From Geodermatophilus tzadiensis (lineage in GTDB: Bacteria; Actinomycetota; Actinomycetes; Mycobacteriales; Geodermatophilaceae): a stretch of DNA of 64,000 bases. The translations under genes and the position numbers were made by a program. The DNA lies in NCBI RefSeq assembly GCF_003002915.1, contig NZ_PVTG01000012.1, forward strand, positions 62,001 to 126,000. Reading direction: 5' to 3'. Shown piece after piece: positions 1-39,960 of the stretch; position 1 is the first letter of the stretch, and each line of letters begins with the position of its first letter. Under the pieces are notes generated by a model. That model worked only from the letters and a program-made list of their open reading frames with translations, had not been told where the DNA came from and searched no databases.

Positions 1-1285
1 CGGCGCCGCGCGCCTGGCGCTGCTGGCCGAGGTCAGCGCGCTCATGTCGACCGCCCTCGGCTCGGCCGTCGCCGAGGAGCGGGCCCTGCAGCGGGTCGCC
101 GCGGCGGTGGTCCCGGTGCTCGGCGACTGGGTGGTCCTCACCCTCGCCGACGCCGGCGGCGGCCGGATGCGCGACGTCGCCTCCTGGCACCGGGACCCGG
201 CGCTGCGGGGGGCCACCGCCACCTATGCCGGCCTGCGGCTGGCCTCGATCGCTCCCGACGCGCCGGTGCTGGAGGCCCTGGGGTCCGGCCGGCTGCTCAC
301 CGTGCCCGACGTGCAGGCGGTCATCCGCCCGACGCTGCCCGAGGGCGAGGTGCGCGAGGTCTTCGACGTGCTGGCGCCCCGCTCGGCCGTGACGCTGCCG
401 CTGCTGGCCCGCGGGCGGACGCTGGGCGCGCTGAGCCTCTACCGCGGCCCGGACCGCCCGGCCGCCGGCGCCGAGGACGTCCGCGCCGCCCGCGAGGTCG
501 CCGACCGCGTCGCGCTCGCGCTGGACAACGCGCGGCTGTTCGACCAGCAGCGCCGGCTGGCCGAGGCGCTGCAGCGCAGCATGCTCACCGCGCCGCCGCA
601 GCCCGACCATGCCGAGATCGTCGTCCGCTACCAGCCGGCCGTGCAGGCGGCCCAGGTCGGCGGTGACTGGTACGACGCGTTCCTCCAGCCCGACGGCGCG
701 ACCGTGCTGGTGATCGGCGACGTCGTCGGCCACGACACCGAGGCCGCCGCCACGATGGGCCAGCTGCGCGGGATGCTGCGCGGGATCGCCCACCGCGGCG
801 ACCACCCGCCCGACGCGGTGCTCTGTGAGCTCGACGCCGCCGTCGAGGGGCTCGGCCTGCACACGATGGCCACCGCGGTGGTCGCCCGGGTGGAGCAGAC
901 GCCGGAGCAGCGCGCCGCCGGCCGCACCACGCTGCGCTGGTCGAACGCCGGCCACCCGCCGCCGCTGCTGCTCACGCCGTCGGGGGAGGTGCGGACGCTG
1001 GGCACCGAGCGCGGGGAGCTGATGCTCGGCGTCGACCCGGGGGCACGGCGGTCGTCCTCGGCGGTGGAGGTCTCCCGCGGCTCCACGCTGCTGCTCTACA
1101 CCGACGGGCTGGTCGAGGGCCGCGACCTGCTGCTCGACGACGGCATCGAGCTGCTGCGGACGGCGCTGGTCCAGCTCGCCGACCTGCCGCTGGAGCGGCT
1201 GTGCGACGCGCTGGTCACCCGGCTGCGCCCCGAGGGCCTCCAGGACGACGTCGCGCTGGTCGCCATCCGCCTGCACCCCCAGTAG
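1..1285 (+). CDS. PP2C-type (SpoIIE/RsbU) serine phosphatase with GAF domain, 5' end outside window
   Basis: The reading frame is open from base 2 without a convincing start: the residues before the first ATG at 44 look like the usual linker before a GAF domain, so the gene begins upstream of the window. A GAF domain covers roughly the first 180 visible residues. A PP2C phosphatase domain follows, with the metal-binding motif GGDWYDAF near visible residue 219 and the C-terminal motif LQDDVALVAI. Such phosphatases dephosphorylate STAS anti-anti-sigma factors in partner-switching stress pathways. The gene converges on an RsbW-like kinase gene, the natural opposing activity. The family call is secure; the substrate is inferred. 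Confidence 0.93.
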   Translation, partial: GAARLALLAEVSALMSTALGSAVAEERALQRVAAAVVPVLGDWVVLTLADAGGGRMRDVASWHRDPALRGATATYAGLRLASIAPDAPVLEALGSGRLLTVPDVQAVIRPTLPEGEVREVFDVLAPRSAVTLPLLARGRTLGALSLYRGPDRPAAGAEDVRAAREVADRVALALDNARLFDQQRRLAEALQRSMLTAPPQPDHAEIVVRYQPAVQAAQVGGDWYDAFLQPDGATVLVIGDVVGHDTEAAATMGQLRGMLRGIAHRGDHPPDAVLCELDAAVEGLGLHTMATAVVARVEQTPEQRAAGRTTLRWSNAGHPPPLLLTPSGEVRTLGTERGELMLGVDPGARRSSSAVEVSRGSTLLLYTDGLVEGRDLLLDDGIELLRTALVQLADLPLERLCDALVTRLRPEGLQDDVALVAIRLHPQ

Positions 1286-1290
1286 GAGGA

Positions 1291-1350
1291 GGACCTCCCT
1301 CCTCCCCACGCCTCGCTCCGCTCGGCGCGGGCCCCTGAGGGAGGCCGTCC
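1291..1350. terminator. Hairpin between convergent genes
   Basis: An inverted repeat (CCTCCCT at 1294-1300 with AGGGAGG at 1338-1344) encloses a GC-rich loop. It lies between the convergent phosphatase and RsbW-like genes, so it could end transcription from both sides. It resembles the hairpin at 27111-27165 in sequence and layout. Confidence 0.5.
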
Positions 1351-1357
1351 CGGCACC

Positions 1358-1783
1358 TCACGTGCGGGGGAGGACCGCCCAGACGGTCTTGGCGTCGCCC
1401 TCGACGTACCAGCCGTGCGCGGTCGACAGCTCGGCGATCAGGTGCAGGCCCAGGCCGCCCTCGCTGGGGTCGCGATCGACGGCGGGCGTCGGCGGGGTGC
1501 GGGCGTCGCCGTCGGAGACCGCGACGAGGAACGCGTTCCCGGTGCGGCGGACGGAGGCCTCCACGCGGCCGCCGCCGTGGCGCAGGGCGTTGGAGGCCAT
1601 CTCGTCGAGGACCAGCAGCAGCCGGTCGCGCAGGTCGGCCGGCTCCTGGGCGTCGATGCGCCGCCGCAGCTCCTCGCGCACCAGGGGGAGCTCGGCGACG
1701 TCGGACAGCCGCCACTGCAGCCCGTCGCACGCCGGTGGAGGGGACGCCGCCGGCCAGCCGGCGCCGGCCGATCCGCGTCCCAC
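1358..1783 (-). CDS. RsbW-like ATP-binding protein (anti-sigma factor kinase family)
   Basis: This 141-residue protein carries a GHKL ATPase fold. The N-box reads LDEMASNALRHGG and the G-box reads GGLGLHLIAEL. Proteins of this size are serine kinases that bind sigma factors and phosphorylate STAS antagonists. The GTG at 1783 is chosen because GAGGAG sits 8 bases upstream; a TTG at 1864 would add 27 arginine-rich residues with no family similarity. It faces the PP2C phosphatase gene, so the two may form opposing arms of one switch. No sigma factor or separate STAS gene is adjacent, so the partners are unknown. Confidence 0.85.
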   Translation of the reverse strand: MGRGSAGAGWPAASPPPACDGLQWRLSDVAELPLVREELRRRIDAQEPADLRDRLLLVLDEMASNALRHGGGRVEASVRRTGNAFLVAVSDGDARTPPTPAVDRDPSEGGLGLHLIAELSTAHGWYVEGDAKTVWAVLPRT

Positions 1784-30676: not shown

Positions 30677-31582
30677 TCAGCAGAAGCCGGGGGTGCCCAG
30701 CCAGGCGACCTCGGCCGGCGGGACGTCGTCGCGCAGCACGGTCCCCTCGATGAGGCCGTAGGGCCGGTCGTCGGCGTGGTAGACGAGCACGTCGTCCTCG
30801 CCGGGGGTGTTGGACAGGCCGTACGCCGACAGGTCCTGCAGGAAGTGGTGCCGGTTGGGCATCGACATCCGCACCTCGGCGACCTCCGGCACCGCCTCGA
30901 GCACCGCCTCGCCCATCGCGTACAGCGTCTGCTGCAGCGCGAGGGAGTGGGTGGCGGCGAAGGTCTCGAGCAGCGTCGTCCGGACCGTGTGGAAGACGGG
31001 GTCCCAGTCCTGGTCCGCCGACGTGTAGCGCCAGCGGGCGGTGACCGCGGTGGCCAGGACGCGGTCCCGGGTCTCGGCCAGGGTGGTGTAGCGGTCGCGC
31101 GGGAAGCCCCAGAACTCCGAGCCGGTGGTCTTGAGGACGACGAGGTCGGCCAGGCCGGCCAGCACGTGCGCCTCGCCACCGTCCACGGTGACCACCGCGG
31201 TCCGCACCTCCCCGCCGGGCCGCCGGAAGGCGTGGTCGTGCGGCCGCCCGCCGACGGGGATCCGCTCCCAGCCGTAGGACTCCACCGCCACGCGGGCGCC
31301 GGTGATCCAGTCGTAGGAGCCGGCGAGGTGGCGGGCCAGCCGCAGGCCGAACGCCTCGGGGGAGCCGACGCCGTCGCGGGCGAAGGCGAAGACGGTGTTC
31401 TTCTGCGCGTCGGTGGTCAGCACGTGCGCGTTGTCGCCCCGGGTGTGCGCGGCCGCGAAGTCACCCCGCAGGCTGGTGCTCACGTCCAGGTCGACCAGCT
31501 CGTGGCGGGGGGAGCTGCGGTCGACCGCGACCACGCGGACCTCCGCCTTCCCGTACTGGTTGGGTCCGAGCACGATCGCCAT
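30677..31582 (-). CDS. Urate oxidase (uricase)
   Basis: Uricase oxidises uric acid to 5-hydroxyisourate. The 301-residue protein has the start region GPNQYGKAEVRVVAV, the catalytic segment LTTDAQKNTVFAFAR, KTTGSEFWGFPRDRYTTLAE and the C-terminal MPNRHHFLQDL. The ATG at 31582 is preferred; the frame is open further upstream but only from there does it match the family. It is the last gene of a minus-strand operon whose upstream members carry out the next two steps. Confidence 0.96.
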   Translation of the reverse strand: MAIVLGPNQYGKAEVRVVAVDRSSPRHELVDLDVSTSLRGDFAAAHTRGDNAHVLTTDAQKNTVFAFARDGVGSPEAFGLRLARHLAGSYDWITGARVAVESYGWERIPVGGRPHDHAFRRPGGEVRTAVVTVDGGEAHVLAGLADLVVLKTTGSEFWGFPRDRYTTLAETRDRVLATAVTARWRYTSADQDWDPVFHTVRTTLLETFAATHSLALQQTLYAMGEAVLEAVPEVAEVRMSMPNRHHFLQDLSAYGLSNTPGEDDVLVYHADDRPYGLIEGTVLRDDVPPAEVAWLGTPGFC

Positions 31583-31629
31583 GCCGCGCAGCCTGCCCGA
31601 CGCCGGTGTTGCACGTGGAACGCGCGCCG

Positions 31630-31947
31630 TCAGCTCCCGCGGTACGTCGAGTACGCGAACGGCGAGAGCAGCAGCGGCACGTGGTGGTGCTCGGCCGGCG
31701 CGGTGACGGTGAACGTCAGCGTCACCTCCGGCCAGAACGCGGCCACCCCGTGTCCGTCGAACCACGGCCCGGTGGCGAGGACCAGCCGGTGCGGGCCGGC
31801 GACGGTGGCCTCCTCGGTGAGCCGGCAGCGGCCGTCGGCGTCGGTCACCCCCTGGGCGAGCAGCTGCTCACCCGCGTACAGCCGGACGGCGATCCCCGTG
31901 GCCGGCCGCCCCGCGACCGCGTCGAGCACGTGCGTGGAGACGCTCAC
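31630..31947 (-). CDS. uraH: 5-Hydroxyisourate hydrolase (transthyretin-like)
   Basis: This 105-residue transthyretin-related enzyme hydrolyses 5-hydroxyisourate. It starts with VSVSTHVLDAVAGRPA, has the conserved His and Arg landmarks, and ends in YRGS, the family signature tetrapeptide. The GTG start overlaps the uraD stop as GTGA. It has no signal peptide, so it works in the cytoplasm with uricase. Confidence 0.95.
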   Translation of the reverse strand: MSVSTHVLDAVAGRPATGIAVRLYAGEQLLAQGVTDADGRCRLTEEATVAGPHRLVLATGPWFDGHGVAAFWPEVTLTFTVTAPAEHHHVPLLLSPFAYSTYRGS

Positions 31948-32441
31948 GAGACCAGCTCCCGCACCCGTGCCTCGGAGATTTGGGCCAGCTGCTCGACCAC
32001 CTCGGCCCGCTCGGCCTCGGCGTCGTTGTCCAGCCGGCGGCGCAGCTCGGCGAGCACCTCCTCGGGCGACCGGCCGGCCGCGCGGATCAGGTAGACGTGG
32101 CCGAAGCGCTCCTCGTAGGCCCGGTTGCCCTCGACCAGCGCGGCGCGGGTGTCGTCGTCGGCCCCGCCCATCGACGCCTGCTCGCGGCGGGAGGCCGCCG
32201 CCTCGGCCGAGCCGCCCTCGACCCGGTCGCCGATCCGCGGGTGCGTGGCCAGCGCGAGCTCCACCTCGTCCCACGGCAGCGCGCGGGCGACCTCGCCGGC
32301 GCGGCGGACGAGGGTGTCGACGTCGGGGAAGGGCCGGCCGGCGACCAGCCCGGCGGCGAACCGCGGCGCGGCGTTGCAGGCGCGCAGGGCCTCGACGGCG
32401 GCGTCGGCGGGCCGGCTGTTGAACTCGTCGAGGCGGGACAC
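31944..32441 (-). CDS. uraD: 2-Oxo-4-hydroxy-4-carboxy-5-ureidoimidazoline (OHCU) decarboxylase
   Basis: This 165-residue protein completes conversion of urate to S-allantoin. It has LDEFNSRP at the N-terminus, the active-site HPRIGDR and the C-terminal RFGHVYLIRAAGRSPEEVL segment that mark the OHCU decarboxylase family. GTG start at 32441. It leads the operon uraD-uraH-uricase and is divergent from a DUF6986 gene across 40 bases, where a shared promoter must lie. Confidence 0.95.
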   Translation of the reverse strand: MSRLDEFNSRPADAAVEALRACNAAPRFAAGLVAGRPFPDVDTLVRRAGEVARALPWDEVELALATHPRIGDRVEGGSAEAAASRREQASMGGADDDTRAALVEGNRAYEERFGHVYLIRAAGRSPEEVLAELRRRLDNDAEAERAEVVEQLAQISEARVRELVS

Positions 32442-32481
32442 GGTGACAGGATGGCAGCCCGGCCGGCCGAGGGAGGGTGCG

Positions 32482-33681
32482 TTGCTGGACGACGCCGTCT
32501 ACGCGGAGCTCGACCGTCGGCTGGCCCCGGTCGACGCCGCGCGCCGGGCCGCCTGGCCGGGGGAGCGGCCCCGCCGCCAGCCGGTGCACACCTGCTACGT
32601 GCCGGCCGACGCCGTCGTCCCCGGCGTGGCCGCCGCGTGGGGCGCCGCCGCCCTGGCCGCCCTCGACGAGCACGGCCTGCCCGACCTCGGCTACCCGGCC
32701 GCGCTGCTGGACGAGGTGCTGCCGCGGGTGCGGGCCAAGCTCGCCGCCGAGCCGGTCGAGGACCTCCGGGTCGACGCCGAGGACGGCTACCGCGGCCGGC
32801 CGGAGGACGAGGACGACGACGTGCGGCGCGCCGCGGCCGCCGTCGCCGCGGACCTCGCCGCCGGCACCGCGCCGCCGTCGGTGGGCATCCGCGCCAGGTC
32901 GCTGGAGGGCCCGACCCGCCGCCGCGGCGTCCGCTCCCTGGACCTGTTCCTCGCCGCCGCCGGCGCTCCGCGGCCGACCGTCACCCTGCCCAAGGTCACC
33001 GACGTCGAGCAGGTGCGCGCCTTCCTGCCGGTGCTCGACGCGCTGGAGGCCGCCCACGGCGTCGCGCTCGACCTGGAGCTGCAGGTGGAGACGCCGCAGG
33101 CGGTGCTCGGCGCCGACGGCGCGGTGACGCTGGCGCGGATGGTGCACGCCGCCGGCCCGCGGCTGACCGGCCTGCACTTCGGCACCTACGACTACAGCGC
33201 CTCCCTGGGCATCGCCGCGGCGCACCAGGCCTCCGACCACCCCGCCGCCGACCTGGCCAAGCAGCTGATGCAGGTCGCGGTGGCGGGCACCGGGGCGCAC
33301 GCCGTCGACGGGTCCACCAACGTGCTGCCCGTCGGGTCGCGGGAGCAGGTGCACGCCGGGTGGCGGGTGCACGCCGGCCTGGTCCGCCGGGCGCTGGAGC
33401 GCGGCCTCCACCAGGGCTGGGACCTGCACCCGGCGCAGCTGGTCACCCGGTACGTCGCCACCTACGCGTTCTTCCGCGGGGCGCTGCCGGCCGCGGCCGC
33501 CCGGCTGGCCGCCTACGTCGAGCGGGTCGACGGCGGCGTCCTCGACGAGCCGGCCACCGCCCGCGCCCTGGCCGGGGTGGTCCTGCGCGGCCTGGACTGC
33601 GGCGCGTTCGACGACGCCGAGGTGACGGCGGCCGGTGCACCCGGTCGGGCGACGCTGGAGTCGCTCGCCGGGCGGCGCTGA
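32482..33681 (+). CDS. DUF6986 protein (HpcH/HpaI aldolase-like)
   Basis: This 399-residue protein has a TIM-barrel layout of the citrate-lyase-beta/HpcH type: RVDAEDGYRGRPEDEDDDV and ALDLELQVETPQAVLG hold the acidic metal-binding residues, and GLHFGTYDYSASLGI follows. A TTG at 32482 with GAGGGAGG (32469-32476) upstream sets the frame; no ATG or GTG is available. It is divergent from the uric acid operon. An aldolase or lyase step beyond allantoin (glyoxylate or ureidoglycolate side) is plausible but not shown. Confidence 0.75.
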   Translation: MLDDAVYAELDRRLAPVDAARRAAWPGERPRRQPVHTCYVPADAVVPGVAAAWGAAALAALDEHGLPDLGYPAALLDEVLPRVRAKLAAEPVEDLRVDAEDGYRGRPEDEDDDVRRAAAAVAADLAAGTAPPSVGIRARSLEGPTRRRGVRSLDLFLAAAGAPRPTVTLPKVTDVEQVRAFLPVLDALEAAHGVALDLELQVETPQAVLGADGAVTLARMVHAAGPRLTGLHFGTYDYSASLGIAAAHQASDHPAADLAKQLMQVAVAGTGAHAVDGSTNVLPVGSREQVHAGWRVHAGLVRRALERGLHQGWDLHPAQLVTRYVATYAFFRGALPAAAARLAAYVERVDGGVLDEPATARALAGVVLRGLDCGAFDDAEVTAAGAPGRATLESLAGRR

Positions 33682-33714
33682 CGCCCGCCCCGGCGGGGGG
33701 CCGGGGGCAGCGCC

Positions 33715-33742
33715 TAGTCTGCTGGGCGTGGTGGCGCGGTGA
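33715..33742 (+). promoter_or_regulatory. -10 box and four-codon leaderless mini-ORF before the 1700-residue protein
   Basis: TAGTCT (33715-33720) is followed seven bases later by GTG GTG GCG CGG TGA (33728-33742), whose stop overlaps the GTG start of the large gene as GTGA. No Shine-Dalgarno precedes the large gene. A leaderless mini-ORF may therefore load ribosomes for it. Confidence 0.4.
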
Positions 33743-36700
33743 GTCAGGACGCGTCCGCCGCGCTGTTCGCCGACGGCGGCGAGGTGGGCCGGGAGATGGC
33801 CGCCCGCGACTGGGCCGCCACCCCGGTCGGCCCGCCCGGGCAGTGGCCCTCCGCGCTGCGCAACCTCGTGCGGATCGTTCTGACCTCGCGCTTCTCGATG
33901 TGGGCCGCGTGGGGTCCCGAGCTGTCGTTCTTCTACAACGACGCCTACCGGCACGACACGCTGCAGGGCAAGCACCCGTGGGCGCTGGGCCGTCCGGCCG
34001 CCGAGGTGTGGTCGGAGATCTGGGACGAGGTGGGCCCGCGCGTCGAGTCGGTCCTCGAGACCGGGATCGCCACCTGGGACGAGGACCTGCTGCTGTTCCT
34101 GCGGCGCAGCGGCTACCCGGAGGAGACCTACCACACCTTCTCCTACAGCCCGGTCCACGACGACGCGAGCCGCACCGCCGGGATGCTCTGCGTCGTCACG
34201 GAGAACACCGAGCGGGTCCTCTCCGAGCGCCGGATGGCCTGCCTGCGCGACCTGGCGACGGCGGTCGCCGCCACCCGGACCGAGGCCGACGTGCTGGCCG
34301 CCGTCAGCGCGCAGCTCGGCCGCAACGGCGCCGACCTGCCCTTCAGCGCCACCTACCTGCTCGACGACGACGGCACCGCCCGGCTGGGCGCCACGACCGG
34401 CCTCGCGCCTGGCTCGCCGGCCGCCCCGGAGCGCATCGCCGCCGGGAACGCCGACCCCGTCTGGCCGGTCGGGCGGCTGCGCGCCGGTGAGCAGGTCCTG
34501 GTCGAGGACGTCGGTCGCCGGCTCCCGGGCCTGCCCACCGGCGCCTGGCAGCGCCCGCCCGAGCAGGCCCTCGTGGTGCCGGTGGCCTCCTCCGCCCCGG
34601 GCACCGCCGCGGTGGCCGGCTTCCTCGTCGTCGGCCTGAACCCGCACCGGCGGCTCGACGACACCTACCGCGGCTTCCTCGAGCTGGTCGCCGGCCAGAT
34701 CGCCTCCGGGCTGCTCAACGCCGGGAGCCACGAGGCCGAGCGGCGCCGCGCGGAGGCGCTGGCCGAGCTCGACCGGGCCAAGACCGACTTCTTCAGCAAC
34801 GTCAGCCACGAGTTCCGCACCCCACTGACGCTGATCATGGGTCCGGTCGCCGAGCTGCGGTCCTCCCCGGTGGCCGCCGCCGACGCCCGGGTGGCCGAGG
34901 AGCTCGAGGTCGTCGAGCGCAACGCCCTGCGGCTGCAGAAGCTGGTCAACACCCTGCTCGACTTCTCCCGGCTGCAGGCCGGCCGGATCGAGGCGCGCTT
35001 CGAGCCGGTCGACCTCGCCGCGGTCACCGCCGAGCTGGCCAGCGTCTTCCGCTCGGCCTTCGACCGGGCCGGCCTCACCCTCACCGTCGACTGCCCGCCG
35101 CTGGCGCAGCCGGTGCACGTCGACCGGGACATGTGGGAGAAGGTCGTCCTCAACCTGCTCTCCAACGCGCTGAAGTACACCTTCACCGGCGGGGTCACCG
35201 TGCGGCTGCGGCAGGAGGGCGGGGACGACGCCGAGGACGGCGGCGCCGCCGTGCTCACCGTGGCCGACACCGGCACCGGCATCCCGGCCGCGGAGCTGCC
35301 CCGGCTGTTCGAGCGGTTCACCCGGGTGACCGGCGCCCGCGCGCGGTCGGGCGAGGGCAGCGGCATCGGCCTGGCGATGGTCCGCGAGCTGGTCGGCCTG
35401 CACGGCGGCACGATCGACGTCGACAGCACGCCCGACGTCGGCACCACCTTCACCGTCGCGCTGCCCACGGGCACCGGCCACCTGCCCGCCGAGCGGATCG
35501 CCCCGGCCGTCCCGGAGGTCCCGGCCGTCTCCGCGGCGGCCGGCTCCTACGTCACCGAGGCACTGCGCTGGCTGCCCGGCGGCGAGTCCGTCCGGGCGGG
35601 CGCGCCGGAGACCGTCCCGGCCCGCGCCGGCCGGGTGCTGGTGGCCGACGACAACGCCGACATGCGCGACTACGTCGTCCGGCTGCTGGCCCCCGTGCAC
35701 CGGGTGCAGGCCGTCGGCGACGGGCAGGCCGCCCTGGAGGCGGCGCAGGCCGACCCGCCGGACCTCGTCGTCAGCGACGTGATGATGCCGCGCCTGGACG
35801 GCGTCGCGCTGCTGGCCGCGCTGCGCGCCGACCCGCGCACCGCCCGCGTGCCCGTCCTCCTGCTGTCGGCCCGCGCCGGGCAGGAGGCGGCGGTCGAGGG
35901 CCTGGCCGCCGGCGCCGACGACTACCTGGTCAAGCCGTTCTCCGCGCAGGAGCTGCTGGCCCGCGTCGACGCCCACCTGCAGCTGGGCCGGGCGCGCCGC
36001 GCGGCCGAGGAGCGGTTCACCGCCATGGCCGACCTCGCGCCGGCGCTCATCTGGGTGGCCGACGGCGACGGCCGCCGGGTGTTCCTCAACGCGGGCTGGA
36101 GCGCCTACACCGGCCGTCCCGCCGAGGACGAGCTCGACGCGGGCTGGCGCGAGGGCCTGCACCCCCAGGACCGCGACCGCTACGCGCGGACGGTGGCCGC
36201 GGCGCTGGAGCGCGGCGAGGGCTGGGAGGTCGAGTTCCGGCTGCGCCGCGCCGACGGCGCCCACCACTGGCTGCTCGAGCGCGGCGTGCCGATCGGCGGG
36301 GACCCCCGGCAGGGTGCGGTGGGCAGCTGCACCGACATCAACGCCCGCTACCGGGAGACCGAGCGGCAGACGCTGCTCGCCGAGGTCGGCACCGCGCTCG
36401 ACCGGGAGACCGAGGTGGAGGGCCAGCTCGCCGGGCTCGCCCGGCTGGTGGTCGAGCGCCGGCTGGCCGACGTCTGCACCGTCCGCGTGGTGGGCGACGA
36501 CGGCCGGCTGCGCTACGTGGGCCGGGCCAGCGTCCACGACGACACCGCGGAGCTGCTGGCCGGCCTCGACCCGCACGCCGGGCTGGGCCGGACCGTCCTC
36601 GACACCGGCGAGTCGCAGCTGCGGCCGCGGCTGGCGGGGCCCGGCGACTCCGGCGTCCGGCTGGACCTCAGCTCGGCGCTGGTGGTGCCGCTGACGGTGC

Positions 36701-38841
36701 GCGGGGAGGTCCGCGCGGTGCTGGCGCTGGGCCGCCACGACGACGCCCCCGCCTTCCACGAGGACGACCGGGCGCTCGCCGAGGAGATCGCCGCCCGCGC
36801 CGCGCTCGCCCTGGACAACGCGCTGCTGCTCGCCGAGGAGCGGGCCGCCGCCCGCCGGCTGGGCCTGCTGCAGCGGGTCACCGCGGAGCTGTCGGCGGCC
36901 ACCGCGCCGGTCGACGTCGCCCGGGCCACGGTCGGCCAGGTGGGGACGCTGACCGGCCACGGCAGCCGGGTCGGCCTGTTCGAGCTCGACGACTCCGGCC
37001 GCGACCTGCGCCTCCTCGCACTGACCGGCTCGGCCCCCGAGGCCGAGCAGGAGTGGGCGCGCATCCCGCTGTCGGCGCCGCTGGCGGTCACCACCGCGGT
37101 CAGCGAGCGGCGGCCGGTGTGGATCGAGGACCCGGCGGACTGGCCCGGTGCCCGCGGCGGGCTCGCTGACGGGCAGGCGGCGGCGCTGGCCGCGTTCGGC
37201 CTGGCCTCGGTCGTCGCGCTGCCACTGGTGGTGGCCGGCCGGGCGGTCGGCGTGGTGGGCATCGGCTTCCCCGAGGTCCGCCGCCTCGCCGCGCCCGAGC
37301 GCGGCATGCTGCTGGCCGTCGCCGAGCAGTGCGCGCAGGCGCTCGACCGCGCCCGCCTCTACCGCGCCCAGCAGGACATCGCCTCCACGCTGCAGCGCGA
37401 CCTGCTCCCGCAGCAGCTGCCGCGGCTCGACCGCCTGGCCCTGGCCGCCGAGTACCTGCCCGGCGCCGCCGGCAGCTCCGCCGGCGGCGACTGGTACGAC
37501 GTCGTCGAGCTCGACCGCGGGCGGGTCGCCGTCGCCGTCGGCGACGTCGTCGGCCAGGGACCCGCGGCGGCCGCCGTCATGGGGCAGCTGCGCAGCGCGC
37601 TGTCCACGGCGCTGCTGCAGGGCACCCCGCCGGCCGCGGCGCTGGAGCTGCTCGACCGGTTCGCCGCGCGGCTGCCCGGCGCCCGGGCCTCCACGGCGGC
37701 CTGCCTCGTCCTCGACTGCGAGACCGGCGAGGTGCGGTGGGCCCGCGCCGGCCACCTGCCGCCGCTGCTGCTCGCCGGCGGGACGGCCACGCTGCTCGAG
37801 GACGGCGCGGGCGCGGTGCTCGGCGCCCCCGGGCGGCGGCCCTACACCGAGGGCAGCGCCACCGTCGCGCCCGGGGCGACGCTGCTGCTCTACACCGACG
37901 GTCTGGTCGAGCGGCGCGGCGAGTCCCTCGACGCCGGCCTGGAGCGGCTCACCACGACTGCGGCCGGACTGGCCGCCGCGGACCCGGCCCGGCTGACCCG
38001 CGCGCTGCTCGCCGAGGTGCTCGACGACTCCACCCCGCCCGACGACGTCGCCGTCATCGCCGCCCGGCTCACGCCCCCGCCGGTGCACGAGACGCTGCCG
38101 GCCGACCCCGCCCGGCTCAGCCGCGTCCGCCGCACGGTGACCTCCTGGGCGCTGGCCGCCGGGCTTCCCGAGGACAGCCTCGACGACCTGCAGCTGGCCC
38201 TGGGGGAGGCCCTGGCCAACGCCGTCGAGCACGCCTACGCCGCCACGGGCGGCGAGGGCCGGTGCGAGTACCGCCTGGAGCGGACCGCGGACGGCTGCGT
38301 CGACGTCTGCGTCCGCGACGAGGGGATCTGGCGGCCGGTGCCGGCCGACCCCGGCCACCGTGGCCGCGGGCTCGAGCTGATCTCCGCTCTCGCCCGCGAC
38401 GTCGAGGTGGCCCGCACGCCCGACGGCTCCGGCGCCGACGGCGCCGGGACGACGGTGCGGTTCCGGTTCGTCCCGGCCGGGCCGGGACCCGCCGACCCGC
38501 CGGTGCGCCGCGCCGTCGCGCCGTCGGCGGTCGAGCCGGCGCGGCTGTCGGTGCACCGGGACGGCGACGGGCTGCGCCTCGAGGTCACCGGCGAGGTCGA
38601 CCTCGCGGTGACCCCCGCGATGCGGGCGGAGGCGCTGCGGGCCCTCGGGGACCTGACGCCGGGCGCGCGGGCGGTGCTCGACCTGCGGCCGGTCACCTAC
38701 CTGGCCAGCGCCGGCGTGCACCTGGTCCTCGAGCTGCGCTCGGCGGCGGCCGCCCGGAGGGCCGTCCTGGACGTGCGGACCGAGCCGGGCTCGGCGGCCG
38801 AGCGGGTGCTGGTGCTCGGCGGGCAGCTGGGGCGCCGGTAG
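33739..38841 (+). CDS. Giant sensor: hybrid histidine kinase fused to PP2C phosphatase, RsbW-like kinase and STAS
   Basis: This protein is 1700 residues long. Domains in order are: PAS-like (1-165), GAF-like (170-340), HisKA with His357 in SHEFRTPLT, HATPase (to about 580), receiver with Asp near 680 in VVSDVMMPRLDG, PAS (about 757-870), two GAF (885-1205), PP2C phosphatase with GGDWYD near 1250 and PPDDVAV near 1433, RsbW-like ATPase with ALGEALANAVEHAYA near 1488, and STAS (about 1600-1700). All catalytic motifs look intact, except that the STAS site aligned to phosphorylated Ser58 of SpoIIAA is Ala (YLASAGV). It appears to put a phosphorelay and a whole partner-switching module in one chain. 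No membrane helix is seen. Confidence 0.95.
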   Translation: MSQDASAALFADGGEVGREMAARDWAATPVGPPGQWPSALRNLVRIVLTSRFSMWAAWGPELSFFYNDAYRHDTLQGKHPWALGRPAAEVWSEIWDEVGPRVESVLETGIATWDEDLLLFLRRSGYPEETYHTFSYSPVHDDASRTAGMLCVVTENTERVLSERRMACLRDLATAVAATRTEADVLAAVSAQLGRNGADLPFSATYLLDDDGTARLGATTGLAPGSPAAPERIAAGNADPVWPVGRLRAGEQVLVEDVGRRLPGLPTGAWQRPPEQALVVPVASSAPGTAAVAGFLVVGLNPHRRLDDTYRGFLELVAGQIASGLLNAGSHEAERRRAEALAELDRAKTDFFSNVSHEFRTPLTLIMGPVAELRSSPVAAADARVAEELEVVERNALRLQKLVNTLLDFSRLQAGRIEARFEPVDLAAVTAELASVFRSAFDRAGLTLTVDCPPLAQPVHVDRDMWEKVVLNLLSNALKYTFTGGVTVRLRQEGGDDAEDGGAAVLTVADTGTGIPAAELPRLFERFTRVTGARARSGEGSGIGLAMVRELVGLHGGTIDVDSTPDVGTTFTVALPTGTGHLPAERIAPAVPEVPAVSAAAGSYVTEALRWLPGGESVRAGAPETVPARAGRVLVADDNADMRDYVVRLLAPVHRVQAVGDGQAALEAAQADPPDLVVSDVMMPRLDGVALLAALRADPRTARVPVLLLSARAGQEAAVEGLAAGADDYLVKPFSAQELLARVDAHLQLGRARRAAEERFTAMADLAPALIWVADGDGRRVFLNAGWSAYTGRPAEDELDAGWREGLHPQDRDRYARTVAAALERGEGWEVEFRLRRADGAHHWLLERGVPIGGDPRQGAVGSCTDINARYRETERQTLLAEVGTALDRETEVEGQLAGLARLVVERRLADVCTVRVVGDDGRLRYVGRASVHDDTAELLAGLDPHAGLGRTVLDTGESQLRPRLAGPGDSGVRLDLSSALVVPLTVRGEVRAVLALGRHDDAPAFHEDDRALAEEIAARAALALDNALLLAEERAAARRLGLLQRVTAELSAATAPVDVARATVGQVGTLTGHGSRVGLFELDDSGRDLRLLALTGSAPEAEQEWARIPLSAPLAVTTAVSERRPVWIEDPADWPGARGGLADGQAAALAAFGLASVVALPLVVAGRAVGVVGIGFPEVRRLAAPERGMLLAVAEQCAQALDRARLYRAQQDIASTLQRDLLPQQLPRLDRLALAAEYLPGAAGSSAGGDWYDVVELDRGRVAVAVGDVVGQGPAAAAVMGQLRSALSTALLQGTPPAAALELLDRFAARLPGARASTAACLVLDCETGEVRWARAGHLPPLLLAGGTATLLEDGAGAVLGAPGRRPYTEGSATVAPGATLLLYTDGLVERRGESLDAGLERLTTTAAGLAAADPARLTRALLAEVLDDSTPPDDVAVIAARLTPPPVHETLPADPARLSRVRRTVTSWALAAGLPEDSLDDLQLALGEALANAVEHAYAATGGEGRCEYRLERTADGCVDVCVRDEGIWRPVPADPGHRGRGLELISALARDVEVARTPDGSGADGAGTTVRFRFVPAGPGPADPPVRRAVAPSAVEPARLSVHRDGDGLRLEVTGEVDLAVTPAMRAEALRALGDLTPGARAVLDLRPVTYLASAGVHLVLELRSAAAARRAVLDVRTEPGSAAERVLVLGGQLGRR

Positions 38842-38847
38842 CCCGGT

Positions 38848-38866
38848 GGGGTGCCGGTGGCACCCC
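38848..38866 (+). terminator. Short perfect hairpin after the giant sensor gene
   Basis: GGGGTGCC and GGCACCCC pair around a GGT loop, seven bases beyond the stop codon. There is no U-tract. Confidence 0.5.
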
Positions 38867-38946
38867 GACAGGAATCGTCCCCGCCGGTGTTCCACAATGG
38901 TGTGTGGACGGCTGGGACCCACCGGCCCGGAACGGTCGAGGGGCCA

Positions 38947-39960
38947 GTGGATCCACTCGCTGGGGGCTCCGCCACGCAGGCGGAGCCGGGACGTCCCGTG
39001 CGCGCGCACGCGTCCTTCTCGCACACCGCGGCGGCGGTCCACTCCCCCGACGAGCTGGTCGCGGTGGCCGCCGCCGCCGTCGAGGAGGGGTTGCGCCAGG
39101 GCGACCTGCCGGTCCTCGCCCTCCCCCCGGAGGTCGCCGAGGCGGTGCGCCGCACGATCGGCGCGCGCGCCGGGCAGGTGGCGGACGACGAGCGCATCTG
39201 CCTGCGGGGGGTCCGGGCACCCGACGCCCTGGTCGTCCTCCGGCGGCTGCTCGAGCGGGCCCGCACCAGCGGCTCGGGCCGGTTGCGCGTCGTCGCCGAG
39301 CCGCAGTGGGGGACCGACCCGCTGCGCTGGCGCGAGGTGCGGCGCTACGAGTCGGTGTCCAACGCGCTGATGGCCCGGGCGCCGGTGACGGCGCTGTGCC
39401 TCTACGACCGCGAGCGGTTGCCCGCCGCGGTCGTCACCGCGGCGCGGCACACCCACCCCGAGCTGCTCATGGGCGGCATCCGCGTCGCCAGCAGCGACTA
39501 CCACCGGCCCGAGCTCTACCTGCGCGAGCTCGCCCGGGTCCGGGAGCCGGTCGAGGAGGGCCGGCCGGTGTTCGCCGTCGACGGCGTGCCCACCCTGCCG
39601 GCCCTGCGCGGCGCCCTCCGGCGCGTCCTGGCCGAGCGGGTGCCCGACGAGGACCAGCGCGCCGACCTGCACCTGGCGGTGAGCGAGGTGGCGGCGAACG
39701 CCTTCCGGCACGGGCGGCGGCCGGTGTCGGCGCGGGTGTGGGCCGACGACACCCGGGTCGTGTGCACCGTCACCGACTCCGGCCGCTCCTTCGACGACCC
39801 GCTCGCGGGGTTCCTCCCCGCCCACGGCGACGACCTGGCCGCCGGCGGGATGGGCCTGTGGCTGGCCCGCAAGCTCTGGGACTCCGTCGACCTGGTGCCC
39901 GGCCCGGCCGGCCTGACGGTGCGGCTCGGCACCGCGCTGGTCCGGCCCGCGGCGGCTTGA
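38947..39960 (+). CDS. MEDS-domain/RsbA-like ATP-binding anti-sigma regulator
   Basis: This 337-residue protein has an N-terminal MEDS-like sensor domain (about residues 20-190; HASFSHTAAAVHSPDELVAV, ALCLYDRERL, HTHPELLMGG) and a C-terminal RsbW-type ATPase with N-box LHLAVSEVAANAFRHGRR and G-box GGMGLWLARKLWD. The same pair of domains occurs in RsbA-type regulators of SigB-like factors. The GTG at 38947 has GAGGGG just upstream; earlier starts are possible. It follows the giant sensor gene and may be part of the same stress circuit. Confidence 0.88.
   Translation: MDPLAGGSATQAEPGRPVRAHASFSHTAAAVHSPDELVAVAAAAVEEGLRQGDLPVLALPPEVAEAVRRTIGARAGQVADDERICLRGVRAPDALVVLRRLLERARTSGSGRLRVVAEPQWGTDPLRWREVRRYESVSNALMARAPVTALCLYDRERLPAAVVTAARHTHPELLMGGIRVASSDYHRPELYLRELARVREPVEEGRPVFAVDGVPTLPALRGALRRVLAERVPDEDQRADLHLAVSEVAANAFRHGRRPVSARVWADDTRVVCTVTDSGRSFDDPLAGFLPAHGDDLAAGGMGLWLARKLWDSVDLVPGPAGLTVRLGTALVRPAAA

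Follow-up and report, generated by a model that had tools for sequence, protein, structure and literature searches.

A hybrid histidine kinase joined to a PP2C, RsbW and STAS partner-switching set in one 1700-residue protein of Geodermatophilus tzadiensis

Our analysis concerns a giant gene of Geodermatophilus tzadiensis and the gene directly behind it, both located in a stretch of 64,000 nucleotides of contig NZ_PVTG01000012.1 (positions 62,001 to 126,000), hereafter called the window. The giant gene is an open reading frame (ORF) with a GTG start at 33739-38841 on the + strand and encodes 1700 amino acids (aa), as described in a first-pass annotation made from the sequence alone. Pfam profiles and structure modelling together give the domain order PAS-GAF-HisKA-HATPase-REC-PAS-GAF-GAF-PP2C(SpoIIE)-RsbW-STAS, where REC stands for the receiver. 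The first-pass annotation had read this chain as a hybrid histidine kinase (HK) followed by a complete partner-switching set, and both the Pfam domains and homologues with the same order bear this out. The features of the gene, in window positions, are as follows.

33739..38841, + strand: 1700-aa hybrid histidine kinase / PP2C / RsbW / STAS protein (ORF, Pfam, alignment)
33796..34218, + strand: N-terminal PAS-like domain, residues about 20-160 (structure model, not Pfam)
34231..34728, + strand: GAF domain 1, residues about 165-330 (Pfam GAF_2, structure model)
34777..34983, + strand: HisKA with phospho-acceptor His357 (Pfam, residue check)
35122..35469, + strand: HATPase_c of the histidine kinase (Pfam, residue check)
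35635..35967, + strand: receiver domain with Asp680 (Pfam, residue check)
36034..36354, + strand: PAS domain 2 (Pfam)
36427..36819, + strand: GAF domain 2 (Pfam)
36913..37347, + strand: GAF domain 3 (Pfam)
37321..37410, + strand: linker from GAF3 to PP2C, residues 1195-1224 (alignment, structure model)
37516..38070, + strand: PP2C/SpoIIE phosphatase domain (Pfam, residues, sequence and fold match)
38095..38466, + strand: RsbW-like kinase domain, HATPase_c_2 (Pfam, residues, sequence and fold match)
38578..38793, + strand: STAS domain, with the predicted phosphoserine Ser1657 at 38707-38709 (Pfam, alignment, profile search)

Domains, catalytic residues, conservation and gene adjacency can be read directly from the sequence. 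Scores above the curated Pfam cut-offs were obtained in the kinase half for HisKA (residues 347-415), HATPase_c (462-577) and Response_reg (633-743), in the middle for PAS (766-872) and GAF (897-1027 and 1059-1203), and in the C-terminal part for SpoIIE/PP2C (1260-1444), the RsbW-like HATPase_c_2 (1453-1576) and STAS_2 (1614-1685). GAF_2 matched three stretches. Taken alone, the STAS_2 score is marginal (29.8 bits, with the cut-off at 29.2); in alignment A1, which includes 25 forms with a fused STAS, 25 of 27 sequences matched the same profile, with a best value of 3.4e-13. Residues 20-160 drew no PAS match from Pfam, and residues 1-340 were modelled by AlphaFold (67 sequences, mean pLDDT 95.8, pTM 0.89) as a PAS-like and a GAF-like domain. 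The model of the C-terminal 496 residues reached a pTM of 0.84, with pLDDT below 50 in the linker between RsbW and STAS. CHASE3, which together with a methylatable S-helix ahead of the HisKA characterizes RsbK-type kinases, was absent from the Pfam matches listed for the protein, and no NCBIfam score exceeded its cut-off among the first 25 of 158 matches.

All residues that were checked are present in the window, in agreement with the earlier statement that the visible catalytic motifs are intact. These are H357, N476, D510 and G540/G542 of the histidine kinase, D637/D638/D680/S710/K732 of the receiver, D1251/D1269/D1387/D1435/D1436 of PP2C, E1490/N1494/D1527/G1529/G1542/G1544 of the RsbW domain and S1657 of the STAS domain. 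With the HisKA histidine, the N and G boxes of the HATPase and the receiver phospho-aspartate in one chain, the protein is a hybrid histidine kinase. With PP2C, RsbW and STAS in this order in the same chain, including their catalytic residues and the acceptor serine, it also has the trio known from Rv1364c of Mycobacterium tuberculosis. Presumably Ser1657 aligns with the phosphoserines of SpoIIAA and RsbV, and a PDB profile search of the C-terminal part matched the STAS chains of both. In the linker that leads from GAF3 into PP2C, 16 of 30 positions were invariant or nearly so across 27 aligned sequences, and the end of this linker is helical in the model. For the gene as a whole, dN/dS was 0.35 against Geodermatophilus dictyosporus and 0.39 against Geodermatophilus amargosae, with the lowest values in HK (0.18, against G. 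dictyosporus) and REC (0.15, against G. amargosae).

The window has a GC content of 77%, and a 2731-aa open frame on the − strand (31630-39825) runs antisense through the entire giant gene; we take this frame to be a by-product of the GC content. Because open frames alone mean little at 77% GC, the reality of the giant gene rests on homology and not on ORF length. It might be argued that the fusion has decayed or is an artefact of the assembly, since very high GC yields spurious ORFs and the STAS score is marginal. We regard this as extremely improbable and reject it in view of the independent genomes that carry the gene, the full-length copy in G. dictyosporus, which is 93% identical, and the conserved catalytic residues. 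A genus search, in which the C-terminal 496 residues served as the query, frame length was scored too and the kinase half lay outside the query, matched the C-terminal set in all 26 Geodermatophilus genomes. In 24 of these almost the full query was covered, and the frame measured no less than 1690 aa; of the remaining two, one matched in a frame of 1176 aa and the other in its PP2C part only. The idea of a protein unique to one genome was likewise rejected, given relatives in so many genomes. From the kinase to STAS, the domain order is the same in full-length relatives from Blastococcus, Actinomycetospora and Pseudonocardia, with an additional GAF match in those of Pseudonocardia.

Wider searches gave lower bounds. 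At least 7 of 296 genomes matched phylum-wide at E ≤ 1e-70 (5 candidates scored per genome), and at least 8 of 121 matched order-wide at E ≤ 1e-100 (12 candidates scored). Four of the order-wide matches had frames of 948-1053 aa, which cannot accommodate the full architecture. Among the candidates scored, no match came from 11 of the listed genomes that belong to the same family.

To describe the architecture across relatives, we surveyed 90 ORFs, comprising the best 80 loci of 590 relatives (592 stretches matched), nine other loci of the same genome and the window. This sample was drawn by similarity to the giant protein and is biased toward its architecture, and all architecture counts refer to it; gene starts were set by the longest frame, and gene overlaps were therefore judged from domain positions. 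HK, REC, PP2C and RsbW occurred in one chain in 66 of the 90 ORFs, from seven actinobacterial families. The other 24 are without one or more of the four domains and include the nine loci of the same genome as well as some loci truncated by contig ends. A fused STAS was present in 26 of the 66, namely in 16 Geodermatophilaceae (the window included), 5 Actinomycetospora and 5 Pseudonocardia. In 36 of the 40 unfused forms, the next gene downstream in the same direction encodes a separate STAS protein, whose STAS domain begins 27-161 nucleotides (nt) beyond the kinase gene. Among the remaining four, two have STAS directly upstream (L034, L083), one has it upstream on the other strand (L063), and in one none was found (L046). 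The Kutzneria locus L030 combines the long domain order of the window with a separate STAS gene. Since just 11 STAS_2 matches exceed the cut-off in the whole 4.87-Mb genome of G. tzadiensis, fused ones included, the adjacency of HK and STAS genes is not a matter of chance, and the 36 downstream STAS genes make STAS the likely cognate partner of the kinase chain. The first-pass annotation had proposed a search for the full domain order in sequence databases; in the survey, 26 forms, that of the window included, have HK, REC, PP2C, RsbW and STAS together.

Across the 66 ORFs, the checked enzyme and receiver residues were kept except at two places, His357 (a gap) and the RsbW glutamate (a change from E to A), and neither exception occurs in the 40 unfused forms. 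Both should belong to the contig-truncated L037, because A1, whose 27 rows contain the other 25 fused forms, shows no variation at either site.

In a tree of the PP2C-RsbW part, 25 of the 26 fused forms grouped together, with weak support (82/77), and 38 of the unfused forms made up one supported clade (100/98). The 26th fused form, from Pseudonocardia bannensis (L078), grouped with the unfused Kutzneria L030 and Pseudonocardia thermophila L034 at an unresolved base with long branches. The fused state requires two changes on this tree, and their direction is not settled.

As to the N-terminal sensor, the top Foldseek matches were phytochrome PAS-GAF structures. Because the query TM was only 0.34-0.39 and the root-mean-square deviation (rmsd) 14-22, just the general order of PAS and GAF is common to both, and a phytochrome-like light sensor is not supported. 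The N-terminal PAS-GAF region is divergent in Geodermatophilus telluris (L016 7959-8939) and Geodermatophilus chilensis (L028 7971-8966), with 43% and 47% identity to the window. Over the whole length these proteins are 82% and 64% identical to it, and the rest of the chain is alike. It looks, from the sequences, as if the sensor had been swapped.

The best solved match of the C-terminal part was PDB 3KE6, the structure of the PP2C-RsbW part of Rv1364c (301 bits by sequence; Z of 30.0 over 338 residues and rmsd of 7.3 by fold). Rv1364c has the same order of PP2C, RsbW and STAS in one chain behind a sensor. In contrast to the giant protein, it has 653 aa and a PAS sensor only, without histidine kinase or receiver. 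It is reported to phosphorylate and dephosphorylate Ser600 of its own STAS domain (PMC9138534, PMC10950880; these and the papers below are cited from excerpts). The earlier view that the trio in one chain is unusual was therefore overstated, because Rv1364c is known and G. tzadiensis itself has two further PP2C-RsbW-STAS trios (618 and 647 aa); what stands is the fusion behind a hybrid kinase. The two compact trios fall outside the fused group in the tree, one of them beside the unfused clade (98/82), and their branches are long and the placement unsafe.

Hybrid kinases that feed PP2C phosphatases are also known already, as in RsbK-RsbY (PMC10950880, PMC4574943, PMC7522486). In RsbK-RsbY and RsfS-RsfR, a histidine kinase signals by way of a receiver to a PP2C whose target is an RsbV-type STAS (same sources), a route that the giant protein, which has the corresponding domains, probably shares. 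These systems use a separate protein for each of the kinase, the receiver-phosphatase, RsbW and STAS, whereas all form one chain in the window. The split forms of Actinoplanes, Mycobacterium, Planobispora, Streptomyces and others carry both the HK-REC and the PP2C-RsbW modules. They differ in that STAS is not fused (it is the next gene in 36 of 40) and the PP2C-RsbW part lies in a separate clade (38 of 40). Moreover, the PAS2, GAF2 and GAF3 profiles of the window are unmatched in 38 of 40, and those that were scanned have other PAS and GAF matches. In Streptomyces coelicolor, the locus numbers place the hybrid kinase SCO7327 (OsaD) close to the SigB antagonist SCO7325 (PMC8346170, PMC9739823, PMC9739842), and this pair may be a split form, a lead that comes from these numbers only. 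In SipA of Actinoplanes missouriensis, a protein of 243 aa, a STAS and an RsbW-like domain interact within one chain (PMC10733313); their order is the reverse, STAS-RsbW, and there is neither a PP2C nor a histidine kinase.

Hence, the giant protein is a conserved union of two known kinds of modules, those of Rv1364c and of RsbK-RsbY, and not a new kind of system. Whether the architecture had already been described is a matter of extent: the C-terminal trio has been, in Rv1364c, while the full combination HK-REC-PP2C-RsbW-STAS was not found in the open-access papers that were searched, a scope outside which the paper of de Been et al. 2011 lies. To go by its title, that paper (Microbiology 157:3-12) deals with complex hybrid histidine kinases that take part in regulating sigma-B in Gram-positive bacteria, and it is cited for actinobacteria in the table of a review (PMC7522486).

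The gene behind the giant gene starts 9 nt past its end.

38851..39960, + strand: RsbA-family predicted anti-sigma factor, 369 aa (MEDS 39022-39459, RsbW-like ATPase 39595-39927)

It scored 230.1 bits against the RsbA anti-sigma family NF041045 (cut-off 210), which makes it a member of that family, with 85.6 bits for MEDS and 79.5 bits for HATPase_c_2 in Pfam. The gene lies directly downstream in all 16 Geodermatophilaceae with the fused form, so that the suggestion of this MEDS-ATPase as a partner has turned into a good candidate. Because the 16 form one clade, their adjacency counts as one evolutionary association and not as 16.

We consider it an even call that the giant protein is a cytoplasmic multi-input stress sensor in which the phosphorylation state of its own STAS domain sets the titration of an anti-sigma factor, most likely RsbA. 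By analogy with relatives, from which the steps, their sign and their target are drawn, the N-terminal PAS-GAF region would sense a signal and trigger autophosphorylation of His357, and the phosphoryl group would pass to Asp680 of the internal receiver. The state of the receiver, together with the ligand state of PAS2-GAF2-GAF3, would then act through the helical linker on a PP2C dimer and set its phosphatase activity; coiled-coil linkers are reported to pass the sensor state to PP2C phosphatase dimers of this kind (PMC12143880). Ser1657 would be phosphorylated by the RsbW domain and dephosphorylated by PP2C, and unphosphorylated STAS would bind the anti-sigma factor, probably the RsbA encoded 9 nt downstream, which would free a SigB/F-type sigma factor encoded elsewhere. 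The receiver control could have either sign, because the precedents are opposite: receiver phosphorylation lowers PP2C activity on RsfB in RsfR of Mycobacterium smegmatis (PMC10950880) and raises it in RsbY of Bacillus cereus (PMC7522486). Since relatives have STAS as a separate adjoining gene, an intramolecular switch seems plausible. A more far-reaching version, which we hold only tentatively and think less probable than the general reading, is that the full path from signal to sigma factor runs in one chain, with an internal His-Asp relay, a balance on its own STAS and no separate response regulator or Hpt protein, and with the neighbouring MEDS-RsbA protein, a second anti-sigma factor with a sensory part, reading the result, as a hard-wired two-gene stress switch.

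Several observations weigh against the proposed switch, and they fall into three groups. The first group concerns RsbA and the sigma factor. RsbA is downstream in none of the 10 Actinomycetospora and Pseudonocardia fused forms (in two it is upstream) and in none of the 40 unfused forms (in L063 it is on the other strand), and is therefore no universal partner. No SigB/F/G-type sigma was matched in the window and no TIGR02980 match was found on contig C12, so that the locus is not a cluster of the sigB/sigF operon type, in which the cognate sigma gene stands beside its regulators. An alternative explanation might be that the RsbW domain itself is the anti-sigma factor, which binds a SigB/F-type sigma and is blocked by the dephosphorylated STAS in cis, with RsbA parallel or unrelated. 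For Rv1364c an interaction with SigF has been reported (PMC10950880). OsaC of S. coelicolor modulates SigB and is reported to bind it through its kinase domain (PMC10117811). The interaction of the SipA domains and the intact RsbW residues of the giant protein would also fit, as would the patchy occurrence of RsbA. The missing sigma match in the window counts against this alternative as well, and it leaves the constant adjacency of RsbA in Geodermatophilaceae without a role; we think it doubtful, though the likeliest of the alternatives.

The second group concerns the STAS domain, which against G. amargosae is the least constrained of the annotated domains (53% identity, dN/dS of 0.76) and against G. 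dictyosporus the second least (0.48). The 24-codon linker between RsbW and STAS shows no clear constraint (dN/dS of 3.05 against G. dictyosporus and 0.72 against G. amargosae). The residue before the phosphoserine (38704-38709) is A, P or S in all 26 fused forms; in the free downstream STAS proteins it is D in 35 of 36 and G in one. The search pattern for free STAS admitted D or G alone at this position, and D was confirmed by eye in the sequences. Perhaps the aspartate is dispensable in cis. In the two compact trios of the same genome this residue is S. The weaker constraint and the lack of Asp might instead mean that PP2C and RsbW work mainly in trans on free STAS proteins, with the fused STAS as a docking or damping element. 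Some of the STAS_2 matches in the genome lie in short frames of their own, and the split relatives, by inference, act on a separate STAS protein. Conversely, position 1657 is Ser in all 26 fused forms, and none of these has a free STAS gene directly downstream, which makes action in trans rather unlikely in our judgement.

The third group concerns the exit of the phosphoryl group. Because the genome has three Hpt matches, a transfer to another protein is possible, and the HK-REC half also occurs with other outputs, several loci of other phyla having a second HK-REC instead. The hybrid kinase half might thus signal outward through an Hpt protein to separate response regulators, with the C-terminal set as an independent passenger; for the hybrid kinases of S. 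coelicolor, SCO7327 included, the cascades are described as unclear (PMC9739842). The occurrence of all four domains in one chain in 66 of 90 ORFs of a similarity-drawn sample, across seven families, and the strongly conserved linker into PP2C argue otherwise, and we hold outward signalling to be very unlikely.

Candidate sigma factors for the proposed switch lie elsewhere in the genome, on contigs C5 and C7. The only SigB/F/G-type sigma above the TIGR02980 cut-off is on C5 (L105:3472-7171), where it stands with an RsbW-like gene, divergent from the gene for the 618-aa trio. A free STAS gene lies near this cluster (8304-8702 of L105). On C7 (105661-109656, L106, − strand), a sigma-like match, an RsbA, a MEDS-STAS protein and a second RsbA follow in one direction; the sigma-like assignment has a score of 79 bits, below cut-off, as its sole basis. 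In this cluster MEDS is carried by the anti-sigma as well as by the antagonist-like protein. Plausibly, judging from these gene arrangements, RsbA-type proteins pair with sigma factors and STAS domains in this genome.

Three further loci were noted. A paralogue of 919 aa on contig C23 (L107:3799-6558, − strand) has PAS-GAF-HK-REC joined directly to an RsbW-like ATPase, and no PP2C or STAS match was found in it. The left edge of the window (1-1702) holds another GAF-PP2C phosphatase gene and, on the other strand, an RsbW-like match. Ahead of the giant gene, at 30677-32441 (− strand), are genes that by eye resemble those for uricase and OHCU decarboxylase, of purine breakdown.

For three hybrid kinases of S. 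coelicolor, a review describes the cascades as unclear and Hpt proteins as in principle absent there (PMC9739842). If the phosphorelay controls the balance of PP2C and RsbW in cis, this would explain how some hybrid kinases of actinobacteria can signal although they have no cognate response regulator. A switch that occurs naturally both split and fused is useful for studying the effect of fusion on partner switching. Geodermatophilus is noted for its tolerance of desiccation and radiation. Because the C-terminal set is found in every genome searched of this stress-tolerant genus, the giant protein is a candidate for its general stress response, and it probably lets stress signals set the sigma-factor switch directly.

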